Origin: an uncultured Bacteroidales bacterium
GTDB taxonomy: Bacteria > Bacteroidota > Bacteroidia > Bacteroidales > Bacteroidaceae
Assembly (NCBI GenBank): GCA_902798425.1
Contig: CADBWR010000012.1
Span: forward strand, 34,008 to 98,007
Direction of reading: 5' to 3'
DNA: 64,000 nt
The notes beneath the pieces are model-generated. The model worked only from the letters and a program-made list of their open reading frames with translations. It was not told where the DNA came from and made no database searches. A program made the position numbers and the translations under genes. Shown one piece after another: positions 255 through 45,985 of this stretch. Each line of letters starts with the position of its first letter. Within the stretch, counting starts at the first letter, position 1.

Positions 255-1544
255 ATGAAAAAACTAACATTTCTGTTAAGCGTCGTCGCATGGCTCATGG
301 CTATGCCTGTGATGGCAGCAGTAGATGATGTGTTCACGTATGGCAATCTGAAGTTCAAGGTTATTACGGATGACGAAACAAAAAAGGAAGTACAGGTTAT
401 CCGTCCTGATGCTGAGCTCTCTGGTGATGTGGTTATTCCCGACCATGTGACAAATTATGCCGTGGAATATTCTGTCGCATATATCAAAGGTGGTGAAATT
501 GATGAAGGTTGCGCCTTCCGCGAGATGAATGGTATAACCAGCGTCACCATTCCCTATACGGTATATTCCATGGAGTATAGTGCTTTCTATCACTGTGAGG
601 GGTTGAAAGCTGTCTACAACAACGGAAACATGGACAAGATTGACGGTTGGACATTTTATGGTTGCACAAATTTGGAATATTGTGTGGTTCCTGCCACCAT
701 CACCAAAATTGGACAAAGTGCTTTCGAAGGTTGTAGTGCGCTGAAGGACCTTACCATCTTGGGCTCTGTCGAGCTTGATCAGCATGCCCTAAAAGACTGC
801 TCAGCACTAAAGAGCATCTACTATTGTGGTAGCACGCTGTCATTGAAGCCAACTTCTAATGAATGGCAGATATTTCAGAATACAGACAATCCTGTTATTT
901 ACACAAAGTCTTTGGCACTTTCAACGATTAAAGATGCTCTGAATGGGAAGGCTGACTGGATTAAAAATTTGGCAACTGATGTGATTCCCTACACTCCTGC
1001 TAAGGAATATACTACCTTCTGCCGCGACTTCGATGTGGACTTCTCTGCTGCTACAGGACTGAAGGCTGGTGTGGCTACCACTGACCTGAATGGTACGATG
1101 CTGAAACTCATCGTAAAGACATCAATACCTGCAGGAACAGGCGTTGTACTGAAGAAATTGAATGAAGGCGAGTACAAACTAAAGATTGCCGAAGAGAGTC
1201 CCGAGGCTATTGTTGGCAACAAGCTGGTGGGCGTAGTCGCTCCCACAGCAATACCTCAGACAGATGGCGACAACACCAACTTCGTGCTTAAAGATGGTGT
1301 TTTCAAGAAGGTTAGCGCCGATAACAATACGCTTCCTGCCGGCAAAGCCTACTTGCAACTGACGACGTCTTCAACTACTCGCAGCCTTTCCTTCAGCTTT
1401 GAAGATGATGTCACAGGCATTGACACTACAACTATTCAGACACAGACAGAGGACGGTCATTGCTATAATCTCGCAGGTCTGCATGTGGGAAATTCTACAA
1501 AAGGGCTGTATATTATTAACGGTAAAAAAGTTGTCGTAAAATGA
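255..1544 (+). CDS. BspA-like leucine-rich-repeat secreted protein
   Basis: 429 residues. A signal peptide is visible (residues 1-22, MKK, hydrophobic core, ending VMAA). Residues about 60-190 hold imperfect LRR_5/BspA-type repeats with the pattern IPxxVxxIxxxAFxxCxxLxxV (for example AFEGCSALKDLTI and TFYGCTNLEYCVVP). A second, non-repeat domain spans about 240-385, and the protein ends with the same KGLYIINGKKVVVK tail as the preceding gene. BspA-like proteins are surface or secreted adhesion proteins in oral and gut Bacteroidales; here the repeat block is short, so ligand binding is only inferred. The tail suggests a shared secretion route with the upstream protein. The stop TGA (1542-1544) overlaps the ATG of the next small gene (ATGA), suggesting translational coupling. 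Confidence 0.85.
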   Translation: MKKLTFLLSVVAWLMAMPVMAAVDDVFTYGNLKFKVITDDETKKEVQVIRPDAELSGDVVIPDHVTNYAVEYSVAYIKGGEIDEGCAFREMNGITSVTIPYTVYSMEYSAFYHCEGLKAVYNNGNMDKIDGWTFYGCTNLEYCVVPATITKIGQSAFEGCSALKDLTILGSVELDQHALKDCSALKSIYYCGSTLSLKPTSNEWQIFQNTDNPVIYTKSLALSTIKDALNGKADWIKNLATDVIPYTPAKEYTTFCRDFDVDFSAATGLKAGVATTDLNGTMLKLIVKTSIPAGTGVVLKKLNEGEYKLKIAEESPEAIVGNKLVGVVAPTAIPQTDGDNTNFVLKDGVFKKVSADNNTLPAGKAYLQLTTSSTTRSLSFSFEDDVTGIDTTTIQTQTEDGHCYNLAGLHVGNSTKGLYIINGKKVVVK

Positions 1545-1717
1545 AAAAGAAAGCATACGTCATGCCACAAATGGCAGTCATAGGACTTAAAATGTCTCAT
1601 GGTCTATTGGCAGGTTCTAGCATTAATATGGATGTTAGTCAAGAGTTTGAATTGGAGGTTGATGAAGATTTTGAAGATCCAGACTATGATTATTATGATG
1701 CTGAAGAAGCCGATTAA
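1541..1717 (+). CDS. 58-residue acidic peptide with leader-like N-terminus
   Basis: Translation gives MKKKAYVMPQMAVIGLKMSH, then GLLAGSSINMDVSQ and a very acidic end (about 14 Asp/Glu in the last 27 residues, several Tyr). The ATG overlaps the previous stop as ATGA, and a hairpin follows 54 bases after the stop, so it is the last gene of the unit. The layout (KKxYxxPxxxxxxLxxxxxLLAGS followed by a variable tail) is that of a numerous, poorly characterised class of short Prevotella/Bacteroides proteins. The LLAGS break between the basic-hydrophobic and acidic parts recalls a peptide leader/core junction, but no modification enzyme is adjacent. No function can be assigned; that it is translated is likely from the coupling and codon use. 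Confidence 0.65.
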   Translation: MKKKAYVMPQMAVIGLKMSHGLLAGSSINMDVSQEFELEVDEDFEDPDYDYYDAEEAD

Positions 1718-6766: not shown

Positions 6767-7915
6767 GATATAAAGGAGTTTGACGAGATACGGCCTTATG
6801 AGGCTGGAGAGATGAAGCAAGCCTTCAACGACTTGCTGAACGACCGCCAGTTCTCTATGATACTGAAGGGCTTTGCCCCTTGGTTGCCGAAGACAGTTCG
6901 CAACGGTTTCTTGAAACTGATGTTTACAGGCATCAAGACACCACTCGACTTCCAGCAGCGCTTTATGAAGCCCGTCGTCAAGTGGATCATTCGCAAACAC
7001 ACTGACGGCTGCACGTTCGAAGATGCCCTGCTGCCAGCTGACAAGTCACTACGCTACACCTTCCTTAGCAACCATCGCGACATCGTACTGGACTCAGCCT
7101 TCCTGGATGTAAAACTCGTGGAAGCAGGCTATCCCACCACGGTAGAGATAGGCATTGGCGACAACCTGCTCATCTACCCTTGGATTAAGCGACTGGTAAG
7201 GATGAACAAAGCTTTCACCGTACGCCGTGGACTGACAGCTCACGAGATGATGCGCTCCAGTCAGCTGATGAGCCGCTACATACACTATGCCGTCGCCGAG
7301 AAGAAGGAGAACATCTGGATAGCTCAGCGTGAAGGCCGTGCCAAGGACTCCAGCGACCACACACAGGATGCCGTGCTGAAAATGCTGGCAATGGGTGGCG
7401 ACCTCAGCGAGTTGAATATCTGTCCACTAACCATCAGCTATGAGTATGACCCTTGTGACTACTTGAAGGCACAGGAGTTTCAACAGAAGCGCGACAACCC
7501 TGCATTCAAGAAGTCACGCCAGGACGATCTAGAAAATATGAAGACAGGCATCTTCGGTTACAAGGGTCGTGTACATTACCACTGTGGAACACCCATCAAC
7601 GAGTGGCTCTCTGAGTTGGACGGAATGCCTCGCAACGAGTTTTTCCAGCAGCTGAGTCTGCGTATAGACAAGGAAATACACCAAGGCTACCGGCTGTATC
7701 CCTGCAACTACATTGCCTTGGACCACCTGGAGGGTACCACGGTACATACTGACCAATATACACAAAAGGATGTGAAACGCTTCGACCAGTATCTGGCTGG
7801 CCAACTGGCCAAAATTGATATTGCCAATAAGGATGAAGCCTTCCTGACGGAGCGTATGTTGACGATGTATGCTAATCCGGTACGCAACTACTTTAAAGTG
7901 AAGGATAAAGAGTGA
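6764..7915 (+). CDS. PlsC-like acyltransferase (1-acyl-glycerol-3-phosphate acyltransferase family)
   Basis: 383 residues from ATG 6764; the in-frame ATG at 6752 lies in repeat sequence and adds only MLTA. The HxxxxD catalytic motif is seen in FLSNHRDIVLDSAFL (about 110), with the substrate block IAQREGRAKDSSDHTQ (about 190) and a later CPLTISYEYDPCD. Such proteins transfer acyl chains to lysophospholipids or related lipids at the inner membrane; several Bacteroidota paralogues are annotated only as glycerol acyltransferase. The length is larger than minimal PlsC because of N- and C-terminal extensions. Its TGA overlaps the GTG start of the next gene. Confidence 0.8.
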   Translation: MDIKEFDEIRPYEAGEMKQAFNDLLNDRQFSMILKGFAPWLPKTVRNGFLKLMFTGIKTPLDFQQRFMKPVVKWIIRKHTDGCTFEDALLPADKSLRYTFLSNHRDIVLDSAFLDVKLVEAGYPTTVEIGIGDNLLIYPWIKRLVRMNKAFTVRRGLTAHEMMRSSQLMSRYIHYAVAEKKENIWIAQREGRAKDSSDHTQDAVLKMLAMGGDLSELNICPLTISYEYDPCDYLKAQEFQQKRDNPAFKKSRQDDLENMKTGIFGYKGRVHYHCGTPINEWLSELDGMPRNEFFQQLSLRIDKEIHQGYRLYPCNYIALDHLEGTTVHTDQYTQKDVKRFDQYLAGQLAKIDIANKDEAFLTERMLTMYANPVRNYFKVKDKE

Positions 7916-8607
7916 AGAGCAAGAAGTCAACTACCGCATCTAAAGCGATGCTGTATGTAGCCATATTATTATGGCTACCTCTCTTGGTAGCGTGCGAAAC
8001 TGACAGCTACGAAAAGGGAGAAGGACGATACTCTTCATTACTGGCAGACTTTGCCTGTCTTACTGTCAACAGCGAGAAAGCTGGTGTGGCGTTTCTTACC
8101 GATGAAGGTGAGAACTACCAGATTAGCAATCCGCAGAAAGCGTCATGGATACAAACGGCCGATACCGTCTATCGCACATACCTATATTATAATAAGGTAG
8201 AGAATGGTAAGGCACGCGTGACATCCATGGGAAGCCTGCCCACCTTAAAGCCGCGTGACGCCAAAGAGTTTAAACGCCAGCCACAGGACCCACTAGGCCT
8301 GGAGAGTTCCTGGCTAACACGCGACGGCAAATATATCAACATGGGACTGCTGTTGAAGAACGGTCGTGATGACAATGGTAAAGAGGGGACCCATGCGTTG
8401 TCACTCATCTGTGACGAAGTACGCCAGAATGACGACCAGACACAGACAGCCTATTACCGTCTGTTGCACGATCAGGGTAACGTCCCCGAATACTACACCA
8501 ATCGCCGCTATGTGTGCATCCTGCTACCAACAAAAGAACGGCCAGACAGCGTTTGTCTAACCGTTAATACCTACGACGGTGTTGTCGTTAGGAAATTTAA
8601 ATTGTAG
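7912..8607 (+). CDS. NigD-like lipoprotein
   Basis: 231 residues from a GTG start that overlaps the previous stop (GTGA). The GTG start gives the positive n-region MKSKKSTTASKA before the hydrophobic LYVAILLWLPLLVAC lipobox; starting at the later ATG would remove these charges, so GTG is preferred. The mature part matches NigD-like proteins of Bacteroidota in layout (SLLADFACLTVNSEKAGVAF, DTVYRTYLYYN, then an Ig-like C-terminal half ending TVNTYDGVVVRKF). The family was named from a nigrescin bacteriocin locus but its function is not established. Probably in the outer membrane or periplasm. It converges on the rubredoxin gene with 3 bases between. Confidence 0.75.
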   Translation: MKSKKSTTASKAMLYVAILLWLPLLVACETDSYEKGEGRYSSLLADFACLTVNSEKAGVAFLTDEGENYQISNPQKASWIQTADTVYRTYLYYNKVENGKARVTSMGSLPTLKPRDAKEFKRQPQDPLGLESSWLTRDGKYINMGLLLKNGRDDNGKEGTHALSLICDEVRQNDDQTQTAYYRLLHDQGNVPEYYTNRRYVCILLPTKERPDSVCLTVNTYDGVVVRKFKL

Positions 8608-39352: not shown

Positions 39353-39445
39353 ATATTCCTGGCTTTTTTCTCGCATAGCACGCAGTTCCTGCAGGGTGCC
39401 GCCGTGGAAGAGTTGGCTGGGACGGATTCTTTTTCCCCTCTGTGC

Positions 39446-39496
39446 AAAATAACATATTCCAAAATATGGTATTTTGAAGTTTTTTTGTTACTTTTG
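39446..39496 (+). promoter_or_regulatory. Promoter and palindrome upstream of the symporter gene
   Basis: TACTTTTG at 39489-39496 is the -7 element. Upstream lies an inverted repeat AAAATAACATATT (39446-39458) / AATATGGTATTTT (39463-39475), 13 bases with one mismatch and a 4-base centre, placed from about -14 to -43 relative to the -7, hence a good operator candidate. The ATG is at 39545. Confidence 0.6.
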
Positions 39497-39544
39497 CAAG
39501 CAGTTTTTCATGTGTGCATACATGGCACTATAACATTTTTCAGA

Positions 39545-40918
39545 ATGTACTATATTGACTCTTTCTTCGCCTGGCTAAGTGCTACACTATGGGGGTGGCC
39601 CATGATTATCTTGTTGTTAGGAACACATATCTTCCTAACTTTCCGCCTGCGTATTCCCCAGCGCAAACTCTTTACCGGCATCCGACTATCGGTCACTAAA
39701 GAGCCTGGTGCCAAGGGCGACGTCAGTCAGTTTGCCGCCTTGGCTACTGCCTTGGCAGGAACCATCGGCACGGGTAACATTGTCGGTGTGGCAACAGCCA
39801 TAGCCTTGGGAGGTCCAGGGGCTGTGCTCTGGTGCTGGCTCTCAGGTATCTTCGGCATCGCAACGAAATATGCAGAGGGTCTCTTAGCCGTGAAATACCG
39901 TGTCATGGAGTCCAATGGCAATCACTATGGCGGACCGATGTATGCCTTAGAGCGCGGACTGAACATGAAGTGGCTGGCCGTCTTATTTGCCATCTTCACC
40001 ACATTGGCATCTTTTGGTATCGGTGCGACAGTACAGGCCAACTCTATGGCGCTATTAGCGAACAAGACTTGGGGATTCCCCGATTGGGGTGTCGGCATCA
40101 TTGCCTGTTTCCTGACAGGACTGGTTATCATCGGCGGTGTCAAGTATATAGCTCGCGTATGCTCATATCTAGTACCCTTCATGGCCATCTTCTATATGTT
40201 AGGGTGCTTCGTCATCCTCTTCATCAACCAGGACTATGTTTGGCCCGCCATCAAACTGATAGTCGAGTCTGCCTTCCATCCAGCTGCTGCTGGGGGTGGC
40301 TTTGTAGGGACGACCATCATGATGGCTGCACGCTATGGTATCGCACGAGGGCTCTTTTCCAACGAGAGCGGCTTGGGTTCTTCTCCCATCGTAGCGGCAG
40401 CAGCACAGACGCGCAATCCTGTGCGTCAGGCGTTGGTGTCCAGCACTGGCACCTTCTGGGATACCGTTATTATCTGTGCCACAACGGGTATCGTGCTCGT
40501 TTCCAGCATCCTCGCACATCCCGACATCAGTTATAGCGACGGAGGGTCACTGACCAGGGTGGCATTTGCAAAGATACCCTATATTGGTGCACCTCTGCTC
40601 TGTTTCGGCATTCTGACCTTCGCCTTTACCACCATCCTCGGTTGGGCGTACTATGGTGAGAGTGCCCTTAACTACCTTCATGGAGGCAAATCAAAACGAC
40701 TCTACCAATTCTTCTACATCGCATCGGTCTTTGTCGGTAGCATTGTCAGTCTTGACATCATCTGGAACTTTGCTGACAGCATGAATGCCCTCATGGCAAT
40801 ACCCAACCTCATAGCTCTTCTCTTGCTCAGCAAAGTTGCTGCGCAGGAAACAAAGAAATACTTGTGGAGTAACCGTTTGGACGACTGGGAGGAAGATACG
40901 CCTATTCCAGTCGTATGA
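39545..40918 (+). CDS. Alanine/glycine:cation symporter (AGCS family)
   Basis: 457 residues from ATG 39545; the longer frame from 39404 crosses the promoter. About ten or eleven TM helices. AGCS signatures: TALAGTIGTGNIVGVATAIA, GGPGAVLWCWLSGIFGIATK, YAEGLLAVKYR, GGPMYALERGL and the ARYGIARGLFSNESGLGSSP segment. Takes up alanine or glycine with sodium or protons across the inner membrane. Its 3' end overlaps that of the convergent ABC exporter gene by 17 bases. Confidence 0.93.
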   Translation: MYYIDSFFAWLSATLWGWPMIILLLGTHIFLTFRLRIPQRKLFTGIRLSVTKEPGAKGDVSQFAALATALAGTIGTGNIVGVATAIALGGPGAVLWCWLSGIFGIATKYAEGLLAVKYRVMESNGNHYGGPMYALERGLNMKWLAVLFAIFTTLASFGIGATVQANSMALLANKTWGFPDWGVGIIACFLTGLVIIGGVKYIARVCSYLVPFMAIFYMLGCFVILFINQDYVWPAIKLIVESAFHPAAAGGGFVGTTIMMAARYGIARGLFSNESGLGSSPIVAAAAQTRNPVRQALVSSTGTFWDTVIICATTGIVLVSSILAHPDISYSDGGSLTRVAFAKIPYIGAPLLCFGILTFAFTTILGWAYYGESALNYLHGGKSKRLYQFFYIASVFVGSIVSLDIIWNFADSMNALMAIPNLIALLLLSKVAAQETKKYLWSNRLDDWEEDTPIPVV

Positions 40919-42527
40919 CGGCGTCGCATAGCTGACTGACGGCAGGGCGGTGGGTAATGAAAATCATCGTCTTGTCGTGACAGTAGTCAAAGAGGCGACG
41001 GAAGAGCTCGTGCTCGGTCTGCTCGTCAAGAGAAGAGCTGATTTCATCAAGCAATAGAATACTGCCGGGACGTAACAGCCCGCGTGCAATGGCGATACGC
41101 TGCGCCTGACCCTCACTGAGTCCGATGCCACGCTCACCCAACAAGGTGTCTATTCCTTTCGGCAGGCCATAGACGAAGTCGGCCATGGCGACATGGAGTA
41201 CTTGGCGCAACTCGTCGTCGGTAACCTCGGGACGAGCCAGCTGTAGGTTGTAGCGTACAGAGCCACTCATCAGTGTGTTGCCCTGAGGTACAAAGACAAA
41301 GTGCTGGCGGGTCTGTTCGTCAACGGTATGTTGTTGCTTATCGGCACCAAAAAGGGCGATTTCACCGCTATTGGGCTTGATGAAAGCAAGCATCAGACGG
41401 AACAAGGTAGTCTTGCCGATGCCTGTAGCGCCCATGATTGCCGTCTTGGTTCCTGGCAGGAAGTCGTGAGAGAAATGATGGAGCACCTCACGGTCGCCAG
41501 AGGCATAGGTGAAGCTGACGTCGTTGATACAGACACCCACATGACCGGTTATCTTCTCGTCAGTTAGAGCAGGCTCCTGCTGGGGACTACCTGTCAGTTC
41601 CTCCAGGCGGTCGATGCTGGCCATAGCATAGAAGAACTGCGGCATCATATTGAGCATGTTGAGGATAGGGTGCTGGATCTGTCCTACTAATTGCAAAAAC
41701 GATGTCATAACTCCAAAAGTAATGACGCCGGCACGCAGTTGCAAACCGCCCCAGATGAATGCCAATAGATAGCCAAGACTAAAGGTAAAGGCTAGTATGA
41801 GACGGGAGATGACGGTGAAACGGGTACGTCGCAAGACACGACCCATCAGCTGGTCTTGCATACTGCTCAGTCGCCCGGTCACCCACTGTTCGCTGCCTAA
41901 CGAGCGCAACACGGCATTGTGTTCCATGCCCTCCTGTACCTGCATCTGGATGGTGCTCTCTTGCTGGCGGATGTCGAGTGTCATATCGCGCAAACGGTGG
42001 GCAAAGAGTTTGCCGAAGGCGACAACAAAGGGAGTGACGAGCAGCAGTGCCAATGCCAGACGAGCATCCATAGAGTACATCAATATGAATGCACCCGTGA
42101 GTTGTACACCCGTAACGATAAACTGTGGAAGCAATGAGGTGGTAACATCAGCCACAGTATCAATATCCTTGGAGAGTCGTGAGGTGACATCGCCTGAATG
42201 TAACTGGTCTTCGTACATCTGACGACGGAACAGGCTGCTGAATACGCGCAGTCGGATGCTGTTAGACTGGTACGTGTTGGCCTTGGTGCTCATATAAAAA
42301 TAGAGCTGGCGGAGGAGGATGGCCGTCACAACCAGTGTAATGAGCAGTGCCACCATGTTGACGACATCCTCGTCGGTACCGGTGCGGATGGTAACGTCAA
42401 TAAACTGTTTGCTGAACCATATCATGACAAGTCCCAGCATCACTTGTGTGATGCCCACTACGATGCGTGTCAGGGTGTTCCACCTGATGCCCGCCATGTT
42501 ACGGAGAATCCAGAGGACGTAGGTCAT
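40902..42527 (-). CDS. ABC exporter (membrane domain fused to ATPase) of the PqqD-kinase operon
   Basis: 541 residues. A type-I exporter half: six TM helices (about 15-300) and an ATPase domain (about 320-541) with Walker A MGATGIGKTTLFRL, signature GIGLSEGQAQRIAIARG, Walker B ILLLDEISSSLDEQTEHELF. There is no C39 peptidase domain at the N-terminus. It is the last gene of the operon with the PqqD-like, S26-like and HprK-like genes, and is probably their product's exporter. It would work as a homodimer. A 17-base overlap joins its end to the symporter gene on the other strand. Confidence 0.9.
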   Translation of the reverse strand: MTYVLWILRNMAGIRWNTLTRIVVGITQVMLGLVMIWFSKQFIDVTIRTGTDEDVVNMVALLITLVVTAILLRQLYFYMSTKANTYQSNSIRLRVFSSLFRRQMYEDQLHSGDVTSRLSKDIDTVADVTTSLLPQFIVTGVQLTGAFILMYSMDARLALALLLVTPFVVAFGKLFAHRLRDMTLDIRQQESTIQMQVQEGMEHNAVLRSLGSEQWVTGRLSSMQDQLMGRVLRRTRFTVISRLILAFTFSLGYLLAFIWGGLQLRAGVITFGVMTSFLQLVGQIQHPILNMLNMMPQFFYAMASIDRLEELTGSPQQEPALTDEKITGHVGVCINDVSFTYASGDREVLHHFSHDFLPGTKTAIMGATGIGKTTLFRLMLAFIKPNSGEIALFGADKQQHTVDEQTRQHFVFVPQGNTLMSGSVRYNLQLARPEVTDDELRQVLHVAMADFVYGLPKGIDTLLGERGIGLSEGQAQRIAIARGLLRPGSILLLDEISSSLDEQTEHELFRRLFDYCHDKTMIFITHRPAVSQLCDAVIRLE

Positions 42528-42529
42528 GG

Positions 42530-42555
42530 AAGTGGCTGTCAGCTGTTGGCTATTA
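42530..42555. repeat. AGCTGTTGGC-type repeat before the exporter gene
   Basis: AAGTGGCTGTCAGCTGTTGG followed by CTATTATT. It fills the 25-base gap between the PqqD-like gene and the exporter gene. Confidence 0.5.
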
Positions 42556-42822
42556 TTCTACGATTCCTATCTCTTGCCACTGGCTGACCATCTTCGTCAC
42601 GTCATCGTGAGCCTGTTGGGCATCAACCTCATATTCCTCACAGAGGGCAGCAGCAAGGGTATCAATGGTAAAATCGCCCATTTCACCGGCTTTTCCCCAT
42701 AGCCAAGCAGCCGTCTCGTTGAGGCTGATGAGTTTGCCGAAGTCGATGGTTCCCAAGCCTTCGCCAACTATTACGTGCTCACCACATACGGTGCGCAACA
42801 CAAATCCTTCTTTCTGTTTCAT
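42553..42822 (-). CDS. PqqD-like protein (RiPP recognition element fold)
   Basis: 89 residues. KEGFVLRTVCGEHVIVGEGL, IDFGKLISLNETAAWLWGKA and the C-terminal YEVDAQQAHDDVTKMVSQWQ match the PqqD family, whose winged-helix fold binds leader peptides of ribosomally made, modified peptides. It starts directly at the end of the S26-like gene and precedes the exporter. A stand-alone RRE normally delivers a precursor to modifying enzymes; here the only enzyme candidates in the operon are the kinase-like and peptidase-like proteins. Confidence 0.85.
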   Translation of the reverse strand: MKQKEGFVLRTVCGEHVIVGEGLGTIDFGKLISLNETAAWLWGKAGEMGDFTIDTLAAALCEEYEVDAQQAHDDVTKMVSQWQEIGIVE

Positions 42823-43275
42823 CTAATATGCTATTTTTAATATGGTTCGTCGGTAAATAGCCAGAATCCATCGACGGATGGGCAGCAGACGCCACCACAG
42901 ACGGCTGGCCTTGATGCGCCAAAAAGAATAGAGTGGATGGTGGCTTCCCTTGGGGGTAACGACATCGGTAGCCAATGCTGCCACATCACTCAGCAGACAA
43001 TGCTCTACGCCAGTTATGTTGCCGTCGCCCATCAGTACCACCTGGTCGCCATGGATAGCAATAATGCGGTGTACTACATAGCGGCATCCCTCGACCCATG
43101 CCAGTACGACATGCCCCACTTGGAGGTTCTCGGGTTTTACAAGATCTACGCTCTCCTTGCTGCCAATGATAAAGGGTAGCATGCTATAGCCCTTGACGGG
43201 GAAGGTGACACGTAGTCCCTCATTCACCAGATTGATGGCACTTTGGATAATCTCGTTATCGGATGGTGTGCTCAT
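42823..43275 (-). CDS. S24/S26 peptidase-like protein
   Basis: 150 residues. The Ser nucleophile motif VKGYSMLPFI (about 27-36) and the second motif RYVVHRIIAIHGDQVVLMGD (about 65-84) have His where bacterial LepB has Lys, as in the S26B (SipW/eukaryotic signal peptidase) branch. There is no N-terminal TM; the C-terminal third is basic with a short hydrophobic part (RLLPIRRWILAIYRRTIL) that may lie on the membrane. A maturation protease for the operon's peptide product is inferred. It overlaps the kinase-like gene by 4 bases (ATGA). Confidence 0.82.
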   Translation of the reverse strand: MSTPSDNEIIQSAINLVNEGLRVTFPVKGYSMLPFIIGSKESVDLVKPENLQVGHVVLAWVEGCRYVVHRIIAIHGDQVVLMGDGNITGVEHCLLSDVAALATDVVTPKGSHHPLYSFWRIKASRLWWRLLPIRRWILAIYRRTILKIAY

Positions 43276-44135
43276 ACTTGACGGATTGTTTCAGAACAGA
43301 GACGGGCTGCAGCCTCGTCGGGCAGACACTCTAAATGCCATACGGCCACATCGCCAGCCATCAAGTCCTCCGTCTGGTGTAATCCCGCGGCAACTTGCTT
43401 GTCCCAGCGCTTGCCAGAGATAGAGGGTACGAGTGACGCATAGGCGGTCAGCGGACGTAGACGTTGTATCTTATCATAAGGTGCCTGACTCAGTTGAACC
43501 ACGCCACCTAAGGGATATCGCACATTGCGGTAACAAGGTGTCTTACCACTCCAAGGGGAGCCAAAAACATAGAATCCATCAGGCATTCGGCGTACCACTG
43601 GGTTGTCGTCGTTAACCAGCTCAGTGCCACTGATATGCTTCAGCCATAATCTGGAATGGGTGCTCTTGCCTGTTCCACTCTTGCCCAAGAACATATAGCC
43701 ATAGCCTGCACAGCTGACAACCGAGGAATGAAACAGGGCTGTTTGCAGATTGGCTGTTGACAGGGCATACATTACCATCAACGCATTGTTGATGCCAAAG
43801 AGGGGTTCGTCAACGAGAAGGACATCGGCATGCTGATAGCAATTGTCAGTCACCATGCGTGCTGCACAGCGTCCCCACAATTGGAACTCAAAATAGGGCT
43901 GTTCATGAAGTCGGCCAGCGAGAATCTGCGAACCATCATCGTCCTGGTGCATCTCAGTGGTGACGTTGTCGATGGCGGGGAAATGCTCCTTGTCCACTAC
44001 GCATAAAGAAAAGACAACCGACGAGGTCTCTTCCGTAGAAAATGGCTCATATTGGCCCATTTCATCGAGAACCGAGCAACCTTCGGGGAGGTCTACGGAG
44101 AAGACGTGATCGGCAACCTTATAGTAGTATTTCAT
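43272..44135 (-). CDS. HPr kinase-like ATP-binding protein
   Basis: 287 residues from ATG 44135 (MKYYYKVADHVFSVDLPEG); the longer frame overlaps glsB. P-loop GKSGTGKSTHSRLW (about 150-163), NDDNPVVRRMPDGFYVFGSP with WSGKT after it, and CYRNVRYPLGGVVQL correspond to the HprK/PEPCK-type nucleotide site. HprK-like proteins in lasso-peptide loci phosphorylate the peptide's C-terminal Ser. No PTS genes are near, so phosphorylation or activation of a peptide is a better guess than HPr. It begins one base after the glsB stop, so it is tightly cotranscribed. Confidence 0.82.
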   Translation of the reverse strand: MKYYYKVADHVFSVDLPEGCSVLDEMGQYEPFSTEETSSVVFSLCVVDKEHFPAIDNVTTEMHQDDDGSQILAGRLHEQPYFEFQLWGRCAARMVTDNCYQHADVLLVDEPLFGINNALMVMYALSTANLQTALFHSSVVSCAGYGYMFLGKSGTGKSTHSRLWLKHISGTELVNDDNPVVRRMPDGFYVFGSPWSGKTPCYRNVRYPLGGVVQLSQAPYDKIQRLRPLTAYASLVPSISGKRWDKQVAAGLHQTEDLMAGDVAVWHLECLPDEAAARLCSETIRQV

Positions 44136-44136
44136 C

Positions 44137-45135
44137 CTACTTCTGCTCTTTATTTTTATAAATGAGTTTATTGGCACCGGAAGTCAGCTCCAACTCGTCG
44201 CGGTGCTCCTGAATGAACGAGTCAATGTGGCGCTTGCGCTTGTTCTCGAAAATCTCGTCGACAGCAATAAGAATACCGGTCTCTTCTACATCGCCAAAGC
44301 CGTAGTTGATGGCGGTGCCAAAGAGTTTCATCGTGGGAGAAAGACCCATATAGGCGTTGACCAACGGGGGAATATTATAGCCCAACTTACGGATTTCGCC
44401 ATTGAGTATTTTATAATCTTCCTTGAAGTTTTTGCCACAGAAGAGTGCTTCCAGTTCGGCTGGATTTGTGTCTATTTCAAGTGGTTTCATCGGGATAATG
44501 AGGTTTTCCTTATCATCGAAATGCTTCTTCAAGAAATAGAGAATCATATCACGGCCTTTGCGGATGTAGCTGGGGTACATCGTCATCTTGCCAAAGTAAT
44601 ATTTGATGTCGGGGCGGATAACAGTCAGTGCACCCAGACCATCCCAAAGGTTGTCAAGCGCAAAGAGGCTCTTGGCACCCATGCGTGATGACTGATAAGG
44701 CAGTGAGACGAAAGAACGTCCGAGTTCGGCAGTGTAGTAGGCGTACTCCTTGAGGAACCTCTCGGAGAAATGGAACATGTGACTGGTTGCCAACTTAGGC
44801 TGTCCCTTATCGTCATACTCCCAATCAGCCCCCAACAGGTAACGATAGCCCCCTATGATTTCCTCTTCTTCGGGGTTCCAGACGATGAGTTGCTTGTAGC
44901 AGTTCGCGCAGGTATCAAATTCGTCAATGTCAACTTCCTTGCCTGTACCACCACCCGCTTCGCGAAATACAATCTCTCGTAGTCGACCAATCTCGCGCAT
45001 CACGTTAGGTGCATTGTGTGCCGTGATGACATATATCTCGTTGTTGCTCTTGTTGGTCATGCGCAACTGCTTGTCGGGAGTGAGCTCACTCTTCAACACT
45101 TCTTTGGCGATGGGCTGGATAATGGGTTGTTCCAT
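44137..45135 (-). CDS. glsB: GlsB-type N-acyltransferase (glycine lipid synthesis)
   Basis: 332 residues. The N-terminal GNAT/acyl-homoserine-lactone-synthase-like fold shows GRLREIVFREAGGGTGKEVD and DEFDTCANCYKQLIVWNPEE, then IIGGYRYLLG. In Bacteroides thetaiotaomicron the homologue GlsB N-acylates glycine with a 3-hydroxy fatty acid from ACP, the first step to glycine and serine-glycine lipids. It is encoded together with GlsA as there. The fusion order (separate proteins) is the gut Bacteroides form. Located at the cytoplasmic membrane. Confidence 0.88.
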   Translation of the reverse strand: MEQPIIQPIAKEVLKSELTPDKQLRMTNKSNNEIYVITAHNAPNVMREIGRLREIVFREAGGGTGKEVDIDEFDTCANCYKQLIVWNPEEEEIIGGYRYLLGADWEYDDKGQPKLATSHMFHFSERFLKEYAYYTAELGRSFVSLPYQSSRMGAKSLFALDNLWDGLGALTVIRPDIKYYFGKMTMYPSYIRKGRDMILYFLKKHFDDKENLIIPMKPLEIDTNPAELEALFCGKNFKEDYKILNGEIRKLGYNIPPLVNAYMGLSPTMKLFGTAINYGFGDVEETGILIAVDEIFENKRKRHIDSFIQEHRDELELTSGANKLIYKNKEQK

Positions 45136-45160
45136 AATTGAACTGTCGGGTTATTGTGTT

Positions 45161-45985
45161 TTATAGTTTATAGACGATATCTTGTACATAATTAGCCCAT
45201 TCCATCGGACTTTTGCTATTGTCAAAGGTCTGCCAGGGAATGGGTTTGCCAATGGCGACGCGGAAGGTCTTTCCTACATTCTTATACATCTCGTCGACCA
45301 GGAAGAGCATGGCAAGATTGAAGGGTAGGAAGCGGTCGGAAAAGTTTGCCAACCGATAGAAGAAACTGGAGTTCTGACCTCCAAAGTGGATGGGCACCAC
45401 GTCGCGCTGATATTCTACGCTCTTGGTAATAAAGGTCTTCTTCCATGCGATGTCGCGAATGACGCCGTTATGACGACGAGAGCAGAGACCCGCAGGGAAC
45501 ATGAGCATATGGTTTTCGCTCTGGAAACCTGCCTCTACCATGGCGGGGAAGTTTCGGCTGACCTTGCCGGTCTTGTTGATGGGGATGCACAGCGGTGCGA
45601 GTCCTGGCAGATACATCAGCAGGTCGTTAACCAGGTAGCGGAAGCGCGAGTCGTAGTGACGACCAATGAGTGCACCGAGCGCTACACCGTCCTCCCCACC
45701 CAACGGATGGTTGGAGACGAAAGTGTACAGGCGTCCGTCATTAGGATTGGGCAAGTTCTCCTTACCTTCGATTTTAAGTGTCATTTGCAAGTAGTCCACA
45801 CAGGCCTCCAGCCAGGGTGTCCCCACCTTGTCGCGCGACTCCCAAAGGAAAGCGTTGACCTGGTCTTGATGGGCAATGCGTTTAAGCCATGCCACTAACG
45901 GACGGGGAACCCATTTTGCCTTGGTCCCCATCTTGTTTTTTAGGATGCTTTCGATGTCAATCGTCTTCTCTGTTATCTGTCCCAT
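45161..45985 (-). CDS. glsA: GlsA-type O-acyltransferase (glycine lipid synthesis)
   Basis: 274 residues. PlsC-like: HxxxxD-type motif in FVSNHPLGGEDGVALGALIG (HPLGGED), and MFPAGLCSRRHNGVIRDIAW as the substrate block. O-acylates the hydroxyl of N-acyl-3-hydroxy-glycine to give the mature glycine lipid. First gene of a six-gene minus-strand unit (glsA, glsB, HprK-like, S26-like, PqqD-like, exporter). A palindrome covers the start of its transcript. Confidence 0.88.
   Translation of the reverse strand: MGQITEKTIDIESILKNKMGTKAKWVPRPLVAWLKRIAHQDQVNAFLWESRDKVGTPWLEACVDYLQMTLKIEGKENLPNPNDGRLYTFVSNHPLGGEDGVALGALIGRHYDSRFRYLVNDLLMYLPGLAPLCIPINKTGKVSRNFPAMVEAGFQSENHMLMFPAGLCSRRHNGVIRDIAWKKTFITKSVEYQRDVVPIHFGGQNSSFFYRLANFSDRFLPFNLAMLFLVDEMYKNVGKTFRVAIGKPIPWQTFDNSKSPMEWANYVQDIVYKL

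Follow-up and report, generated by a model that had tools for sequence, protein, structure and literature searches.

A probable linear polyphosphorylated peptide-type machine in Bacteroidota, with candidate precursors dispersed in the genome next to secreted-type proteins

Which product is made by a compact group of genes in which two enzymes of glycine-lipid synthesis are followed by a kinase, a peptidase, a PqqD-type protein, and an exporter? This question is raised by a stretch of 64,000 nucleotides (the window) from an uncultured Bacteroidales bacterium of the family Bacteroidaceae (assembly GCA_902798425.1, contig CADBWR010000012.1, positions 34,008–98,007). On its minus strand, at 40902..45985, the window carries glsA and glsB and a module consisting of an HprK-like kinase (K), an S26-like peptidase (S), a discrete RRE (the recognition element of RiPPs, i.e., ribosomally synthesized and post-translationally modified peptides) of the PqqD family (B), and a type I ABC (ATP-binding cassette) exporter (D). 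We hold it to be probable, at roughly 0.8, that positions 44135–40902 encode a RiPP machine of the linear polyphosphorylated peptide (LPP) type, the precursors of which are scattered in the genome, mostly behind proteins with a VNGKK-type tail. This reading draws on gene content and its conservation, on active residues, on the predicted folds of B and S, on loci in which peptide and module adjoin, and on co-occurrence across genomes. The recurrent partners of the module are short peptides with a YxxP motif and proteins with VNGKK-type tails, and not glsAB.

According to Popov et al. (2026; PMC13381572), LPPs are RiPPs made by the proteins K, B, S, D, and N from a precursor with a YxxP leader. 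This precursor is phosphorylated on Ser3 of the core, and S, assisted by B, cleaves it. Residues D70 and N33 of LppB hold the Tyr and the Pro kink of the leader, the phosphorylated Ser3 of LppA sits at Tyr+18, and deletion of lppN led to no change seen in the host of that study. The paper states that LPPs are restricted to Bacillota and presents them as a family without a known role.

The six open reading frames (ORFs) of the window all lie on the minus strand where a preliminary description, made from the sequence alone, had placed them, and the spacing it gave after glsB proved exact: glsB and K are 1 base apart, K and S overlap by 4 bases, S and B abut (0 bases), and 25 bases separate B from D. 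K (43272..44135), which is LppK-like, scores below the HprK cut-offs of Pfam and NCBIfam, yet shows HprK/PEPCK matches and a P-loop of that type. S (42823..43275), an LppS-like predicted leader peptidase of the S26B (SipW/archaeal) type, had no Pfam match at E 0.1; it matched signal peptidase models, among them SEC11 and, below threshold, the archaeal-type TIGR02228 (E 1.6e-5, 25 vs. 52 bits), and no N-terminal anchor was seen in it. B (42553..42822), an LppB-like protein predicted to bind YxxP leaders, exceeds the Pfam cut-off for PqqD (PF05402, 60 vs. 23 bits), while D (40902..42527) is an LppD-like type I exporter without a peptidase domain (PF00664 and PF00005). The HprK-like kinase, the discrete RRE with YxxP-binding residues, the SipW/archaeal-type SpI peptidase with Ser, His, and Asp, and the MsbA-like exporter of the LPP pathway have their counterparts in K, B, S, and D, respectively. 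The RiPP logic that the preliminary description had recognized in the RRE, kinase, and exporter is supported, all four genes, the peptidase included, having the look of RiPP machinery; so is its remark that the operon contains neither a cyclase nor a precursor.

The module genes travel together. In 60 stretches around K, one of them from the genome of the window (some being shortened by contig ends), K was present throughout, S and B in 54 each, and an ABC match in 30, a few of the S, B, or ABC matches sitting some kb away from K. In a second set, consisting of the best 80 of 587 confirmed loci, some of which are also cut by contig ends, K, S, B, and D were all present in 57. A regular separation of the genes, which by the preliminary description would have refuted its reading, was not seen: K, S, and B stand together in most of the loci examined, D being less constant, and since this grouping recurs in most related loci, it goes beyond chance. 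K was matched in 164 of the 201 genomes of the family and in 24 of the 149 genomes of the order.

The active residues, the loss of which in homologs had likewise been named as refuting, are kept: those expected are invariant in all the aligned kinases and peptidases. The alignments were built on subsets chosen for their diversity (A2, 34 of the 60 K sequences; A3, 30 of the 54 S sequences; A4, 34 of the 54 B sequences). In K, H136, S153, G154, G156, K157, T159, D176, D177, and P194 are invariant, the P-loop comprising S153, G154, G156, K157, and T159; in S, this applies to S31, H69, and D84. In B, D74 is invariant (34/34) and N35 occurs in at least 90% of the sequences; these residues align with D70 and N33 of LppB in structure 9x8z, residue spacing having served to match the numbering. 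By motif and not by alignment, S31, H69, and D84 of S are equated with S29, H68, and D93 of LppS. The best matches of the predicted fold of B (pLDDT 90) are lasso B1 RREs solved with their leader peptide, and the predicted fold of S (pLDDT 94) is of the LexA/signal peptidase (LexA/SipA) type, LexA chains ranking first. A PDB search with the single PqqD sequence gave no match; with a profile of B, LppB of 9x8z was matched at E 3e-4.

If B binds YxxP leaders, where are its substrates? A search for the YxxP pattern in or beside the operon of the window yielded no precursor; in relatives, short ORFs with a YxxP start adjoin the modules. A hand-made YxxP score was tried and rejected, giving 13 matches in 1.0 Mb as against 4 in the reversed DNA and 4, 6, and 8 in triplet-shuffled DNA; because it was too weak, profiles were used, one built on 12 YxxP peptides (A1) and one on 41 (A5). 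In the genome of the window they matched 20 peptides (A1, E 5) and 21 (A5, E 0.1), one match being a doubtful 25-aa frame with a stop. There are therefore about 20 candidate precursors in this genome: one, an acidic peptide of 58 aa, is encoded in the window at 1541..1717 on the plus strand, and about 19 lie elsewhere.

These peptides share more than the motif through which they were found. All 41 aligned peptides carry both the Tyr and the Pro of YxxP, partly through selection, and one of four copies at the locus L164 lacks the Pro. Among 64 peptides (65 minus one without YxxP), 62 carry a serine at Tyr+17 to Tyr+21 (at +19 in 32 and at +20 in 27), while at the other offsets between 5 and 39 a serine occurs in 0 to 13 peptides. 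The tails are mostly acidic. None of 5 peptides matched Pfam and none of 8 matched NCBIfam. The likeness of the C-terminal parts within genomes, which was reached by 5 of 500 permutations, adds modest support. In L164 (G325), four YxxP-type peptide copies stand in tandem, three of them behind a protein of 1131–1134 aa, the one scanned being a BspA-type leucine-rich repeat protein; this is a recent amplification of a protein–peptide pair. A CRISPR-like repeat array adjoins one peptide gene of the window's genome (L115, contig C4, about 7000–8600).

A search for short genes that co-occur with the module, which the preliminary description had proposed, showed that the YxxP peptides track it, with exceptions. 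In a first set of 41 genomes, in which the presence of K was established by a K match search, the A1 profile found peptides at E <=5 in 22 of 22 K-positive and 5 of 19 K-negative genomes; with the 6 seed genomes removed and at E 0.01, the figures were 13/16 and 2/19 (Fisher p 3e-5). A second set included the genome of the window and 48 others from genera holding both kinds; there, at E 0.1 and with the window's genome not counted, the A5 profile found peptides in 25 of 28 K-positive genomes, two of which had supplied seeds, and in 5 of 20 K-negative genomes (p 9e-6). Apart from the window's genome, 11 others belong to both sets, which are not independent. When the 19 K-negative genomes were rechecked with a K profile, they showed no match, or weak matches in ORFs of 487–571 aa that we read as PEP carboxykinase, plus one distant match in G179; rechecking the other 11 K-negatives gave the same kind of outcome. 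The correlation between peptides and module is strong but not clean.

Peptide and module also adjoin: in 19 loci out of the best 80 of 587, no more than 5–6 kb separates K from a YxxP peptide. In L216 (Prevotella sp.), a tail protein, a peptide, N (identified as PF14907), K, S, B, and D follow each other on one strand. In L206, the tail protein–peptide pair occurs twice in a single same-strand run ending with K-S-B-D. In L218, from a Fibrobacter succinogenes bin, a tail-like protein and two peptides precede N-K-S-B-D on the same strand, a case requiring care since bins can be contaminated. If this arrangement in Fibrobacter bins is genuine, the system may move between phyla. Among the same 80 loci, the module was seen in Fibrobacter bins in L194, L195, L203, L205, L210, L218, and L225, often with an NTP (nucleoside triphosphate) transferase and YxxP peptides; the K proteins of these bins show 44–54% identity to that of the window, reflecting either transfer or misbinning.

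Most of the peptides stand behind genes for secreted-type proteins. In the window, the ATG of the 58-aa peptide (position 1541) overlaps by four bases (ATGA) the stop of a gene encoding a secreted-type protein of 429 aa (255..1544, plus strand), which has BspA-type leucine-rich repeats (PF13306, 75 bits vs. a cut-off of 28) and the tail GLYIINGKKVVVK (tail alignment A6). In loci chosen for the peptides and not for the tails, 45 of 65 peptides lie behind a protein whose tail is of the GLYIVNGKKVVIK type; of 1576 other short ATG ORFs from these loci, which served as controls, 9 do so. By the pairing rule, which was written after examples had been seen, the start may lie up to 160 bases downstream of the end of the tail ORF or up to 8 bases upstream of it. 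Several of the other 20 peptides adjoin lipoprotein-like genes. In the genome of the window, 16 of 20 peptides follow a tail protein. The tail profile, which was built from peptide-linked tails, has 77 matches there at E <=1, so that the majority of tail proteins stand without a peptide. These data do not establish the tail as a signal of the type IX secretion system (T9SS): no curated T9SS sorting domain was matched in the 11 tail proteins scanned, and SprA, which was found in 6 of the 8 genomes tested, including that of the window, was not detected in G157, although all 8 peptides fetched from G157, out of 17 matches, follow tail proteins. In G222 (L057/L221), a genome of the family belonging to Prevotella aff. 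ruminicola Tc2-24, sprA, which encodes the T9SS translocon, stands immediately upstream of K-S-B-D itself.

By analogy with the Bacillota pathway, B would bind the YxxP leader of the short acidic precursors, encoded in trans in the genome of the window; K would phosphorylate the conserved serine about 19 residues past the leader Tyr; S, with its Ser/His/Asp residues, would cut off the leader just ahead of that serine; and D would export the linear phosphopeptide, a single machine serving many pairs of surface proteins and peptides. The reactions and their order, as well as where the leader is cut and which product results, are inferred from the work on Bacillota, and it is likely that the module works in the manner of that pathway. 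A phosphorylated peptide, one of the options named in the preliminary description, is the best reading of the module. The likeness to LPPs as described in PMC13381572 includes the core genes K, S, B, and D, with N in some relatives (e.g., L216), the YxxP leader, the serine close to Tyr+18, the absence of a cyclase, the retained contact residues of the RRE and Ser/His/Asp of the peptidase, and the location of some loci inside polysaccharide clusters. The differences are that the system occurs here in Bacteroidota and Fibrobacter bins and not in Bacillota only, that about 20 dispersed precursors replace a cis-encoded one, and that these mostly stand behind VNGKK-tail proteins.

Several observations weigh against this reading. 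N, the NTP transferase LppN, is absent from the operon of the window, PF14907 being present in some relatives; the HQxIxFET portion of the consensus known from Bacillota (PMC13381572) is missing from the leader; the B profile is closer to lasso B1 RREs (E 1e-7 to 3e-5) than to LppB; and many of the K-S-B loci linked to rpoD have no D. Two genomes are rich in peptides with K and B undetectable (G286, 21 peptides, 86% complete; G214, 8 peptides, 94% complete), a third has 12 peptides and an RRE but no K (G191, 87% complete), three counted as negatives carry an RRE (G333, G232, and G244, 14 genomes having been tested), and three K-positive genomes (G284, G227, and G338) have no peptide at E 0.1. 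The peptides of the window's genome are, moreover, unlinked to its module. In favor of the LPP-type reading, this genome has one K and one RRE. Since N and a cis-encoded precursor are lacking, the module of the window is best called an LPP variant, one that may or may not share descent with the Bacillota clade.

The most probable of the alternatives is that the YxxP peptides feed a different RiPP pathway, for instance a lasso one, or act as accessory or regulatory peptides of the secreted-type proteins, while the module handles a peptide not seen here. The two peptide-rich genomes without K or B and the unlinked peptides of the window's genome are what this alternative would lead one to expect, and YxxP is common to lasso leaders. 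Paeninodin-type phosphorylated lasso peptides, as presented in PMC13381572 and PMC7533575, involve an RRE (B1), an HprK-like kinase, an NTP transferase, an ABC exporter, and a [Y/W]xxP leader, in all of which they resemble the present system, in which, however, an S26B peptidase takes the place of the B2 peptidase and cyclase. Neither a lasso B2 peptidase nor a macrolactam cyclase was found in the operon of the window or in ten scanned neighbor clusters of the module, no genome-wide search having been made. This result, together with the cis-linked loci, the co-occurrence of peptides and module, and the serine conserved at the place of the phospho-acceptor, makes this alternative unlikely.

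The preliminary description had gone in another direction, taking the transcript shared with glsA and glsB to indicate a peptide linked to envelope lipids. GlsA, a lyso-glycine lipid O-acyltransferase encoded by the first gene of the operon (45161..45985, minus strand; NF053697, 398 bits vs. a cut-off of 260), and GlsB, a glycine N-acyltransferase (44137..45135, minus strand; NF053696, 530 vs. 300 bits), are both NCBIfam equivalogs above cut-off, separated by 25 bases; in this respect the window agrees with the glycine-lipid synthesis taken for comparison (PMC11878027), from which it differs in that glsAB share an operon with the module, an arrangement confined, within the loci studied, to a single lineage. 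GlsA, too, lies away from the module in most loci. The idea that the module and GlsA/GlsB jointly make a lipidated or lipid-linked phosphopeptide is favored by the tight gene spacing and by the persistence of the join within one lineage, where five genomes have it, the window's own and L174–L177. These four, uncultured Prevotellaceae, Prevotella, or Bacteroidales bins, are the most similar among the best 80 of 587 loci (K identity 77–86%) and the only ones of the 80 in which GlsB adjoins K; in the 60-locus set, the single case is the genome of the window. GlsB is thus not beside the module in 59/60 and 76/80 loci, respectively, whereas it was matched in 195 of the 201 family genomes, genomes without K among them, and no module gene was seen by eye downstream of glsAB in 7 other glsAB regions. 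The join is, among the loci examined, a local event in one Prevotella-type lineage. The envelope-lipid claim was not borne out; glycine-lipid linkage was rejected as the key to function, and a lipid-linked product has very little probability left. In 4 of the 7 relatives (L254–L257), glsAB is divergent from an mraZ/mraW cell-division cluster, as it is in the window.

It is hardly credible that K and S form a pair with a regulatory or housekeeping role (sensing of the HPr or PEPCK kind; signal peptidase), B and D being chance neighbors, a view suggested by the proximity of K-S-B to rpoD in one group of loci and by the K scores beneath curated cut-offs, since B, and often D too, is found with K and S at genomic sites that are unrelated, the residues with which the RRE would bind the leader are retained, and S is of the LPP peptidase type with no visible N-terminal anchor. 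In the tree of 60 K proteins, that of the window falls into a clade of 12 rows, 11 of which are linked to D (support 100/98), and 10 genomes of the same genus hold a K belonging to the rpoD-linked clade (support 100/100). The rpoD-linked K-S-B trio is mostly without an ABC gene (e.g., L054, L055, L058, L062, L070, L077, and L110); rpoD lies upstream of the trio in 15 of the 60 loci, a gene for a 159-aa protein without a Pfam match likewise precedes it in 19, and a clostripain-type peptidase gene lies within the stretch in 7.

If the LPP-type reading is right, a machine related to that of LPPs, which were described as confined to Bacillota, is present in most of the sampled genomes of the family (K in 164/201), a genome often holding between several and 20 precursors, and the association with secreted-type proteins hints concretely at the purpose of the peptides. 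It might also account in part for discrete RREs that lack lasso enzymes, which RRE-Finder (PMC7470986) left out as potential false positives. More tentatively, and with somewhat less than even chances, the single trans-acting machine of the window's genome might mature about 20 phosphopeptides in a genome-wide display, most of them encoded immediately after a surface or secreted protein of their own, the surface proteome of Prevotella-type bacteria being systematically paired with exported phosphopeptides; such peptides could conceivably be ligands or signals, or be attached at the surface. What is new is the dispersion of precursors paired with secreted-type proteins, which was not found in print within the literature searches made: those on the module or the peptides in Bacteroidota returned the Bacillota LPP paper and general work on RiPPs and lasso peptides, this absence applying to these searches alone, and a text search of PMC12710340 gave no match.

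The Bacteroidota-type promoter pattern is TTTG-N-TANNTTTG. An exact match to it was absent from 42.5–46.2 kb of the window; as this stretch covers the region upstream of glsA, where the promoter must lie, the scan is uninformative. At the other end of the operon, the 3' end of the D gene overlaps by 17 bases (40902–40918) a convergent gene at 39404–40918, which was named symporter-like by eye.

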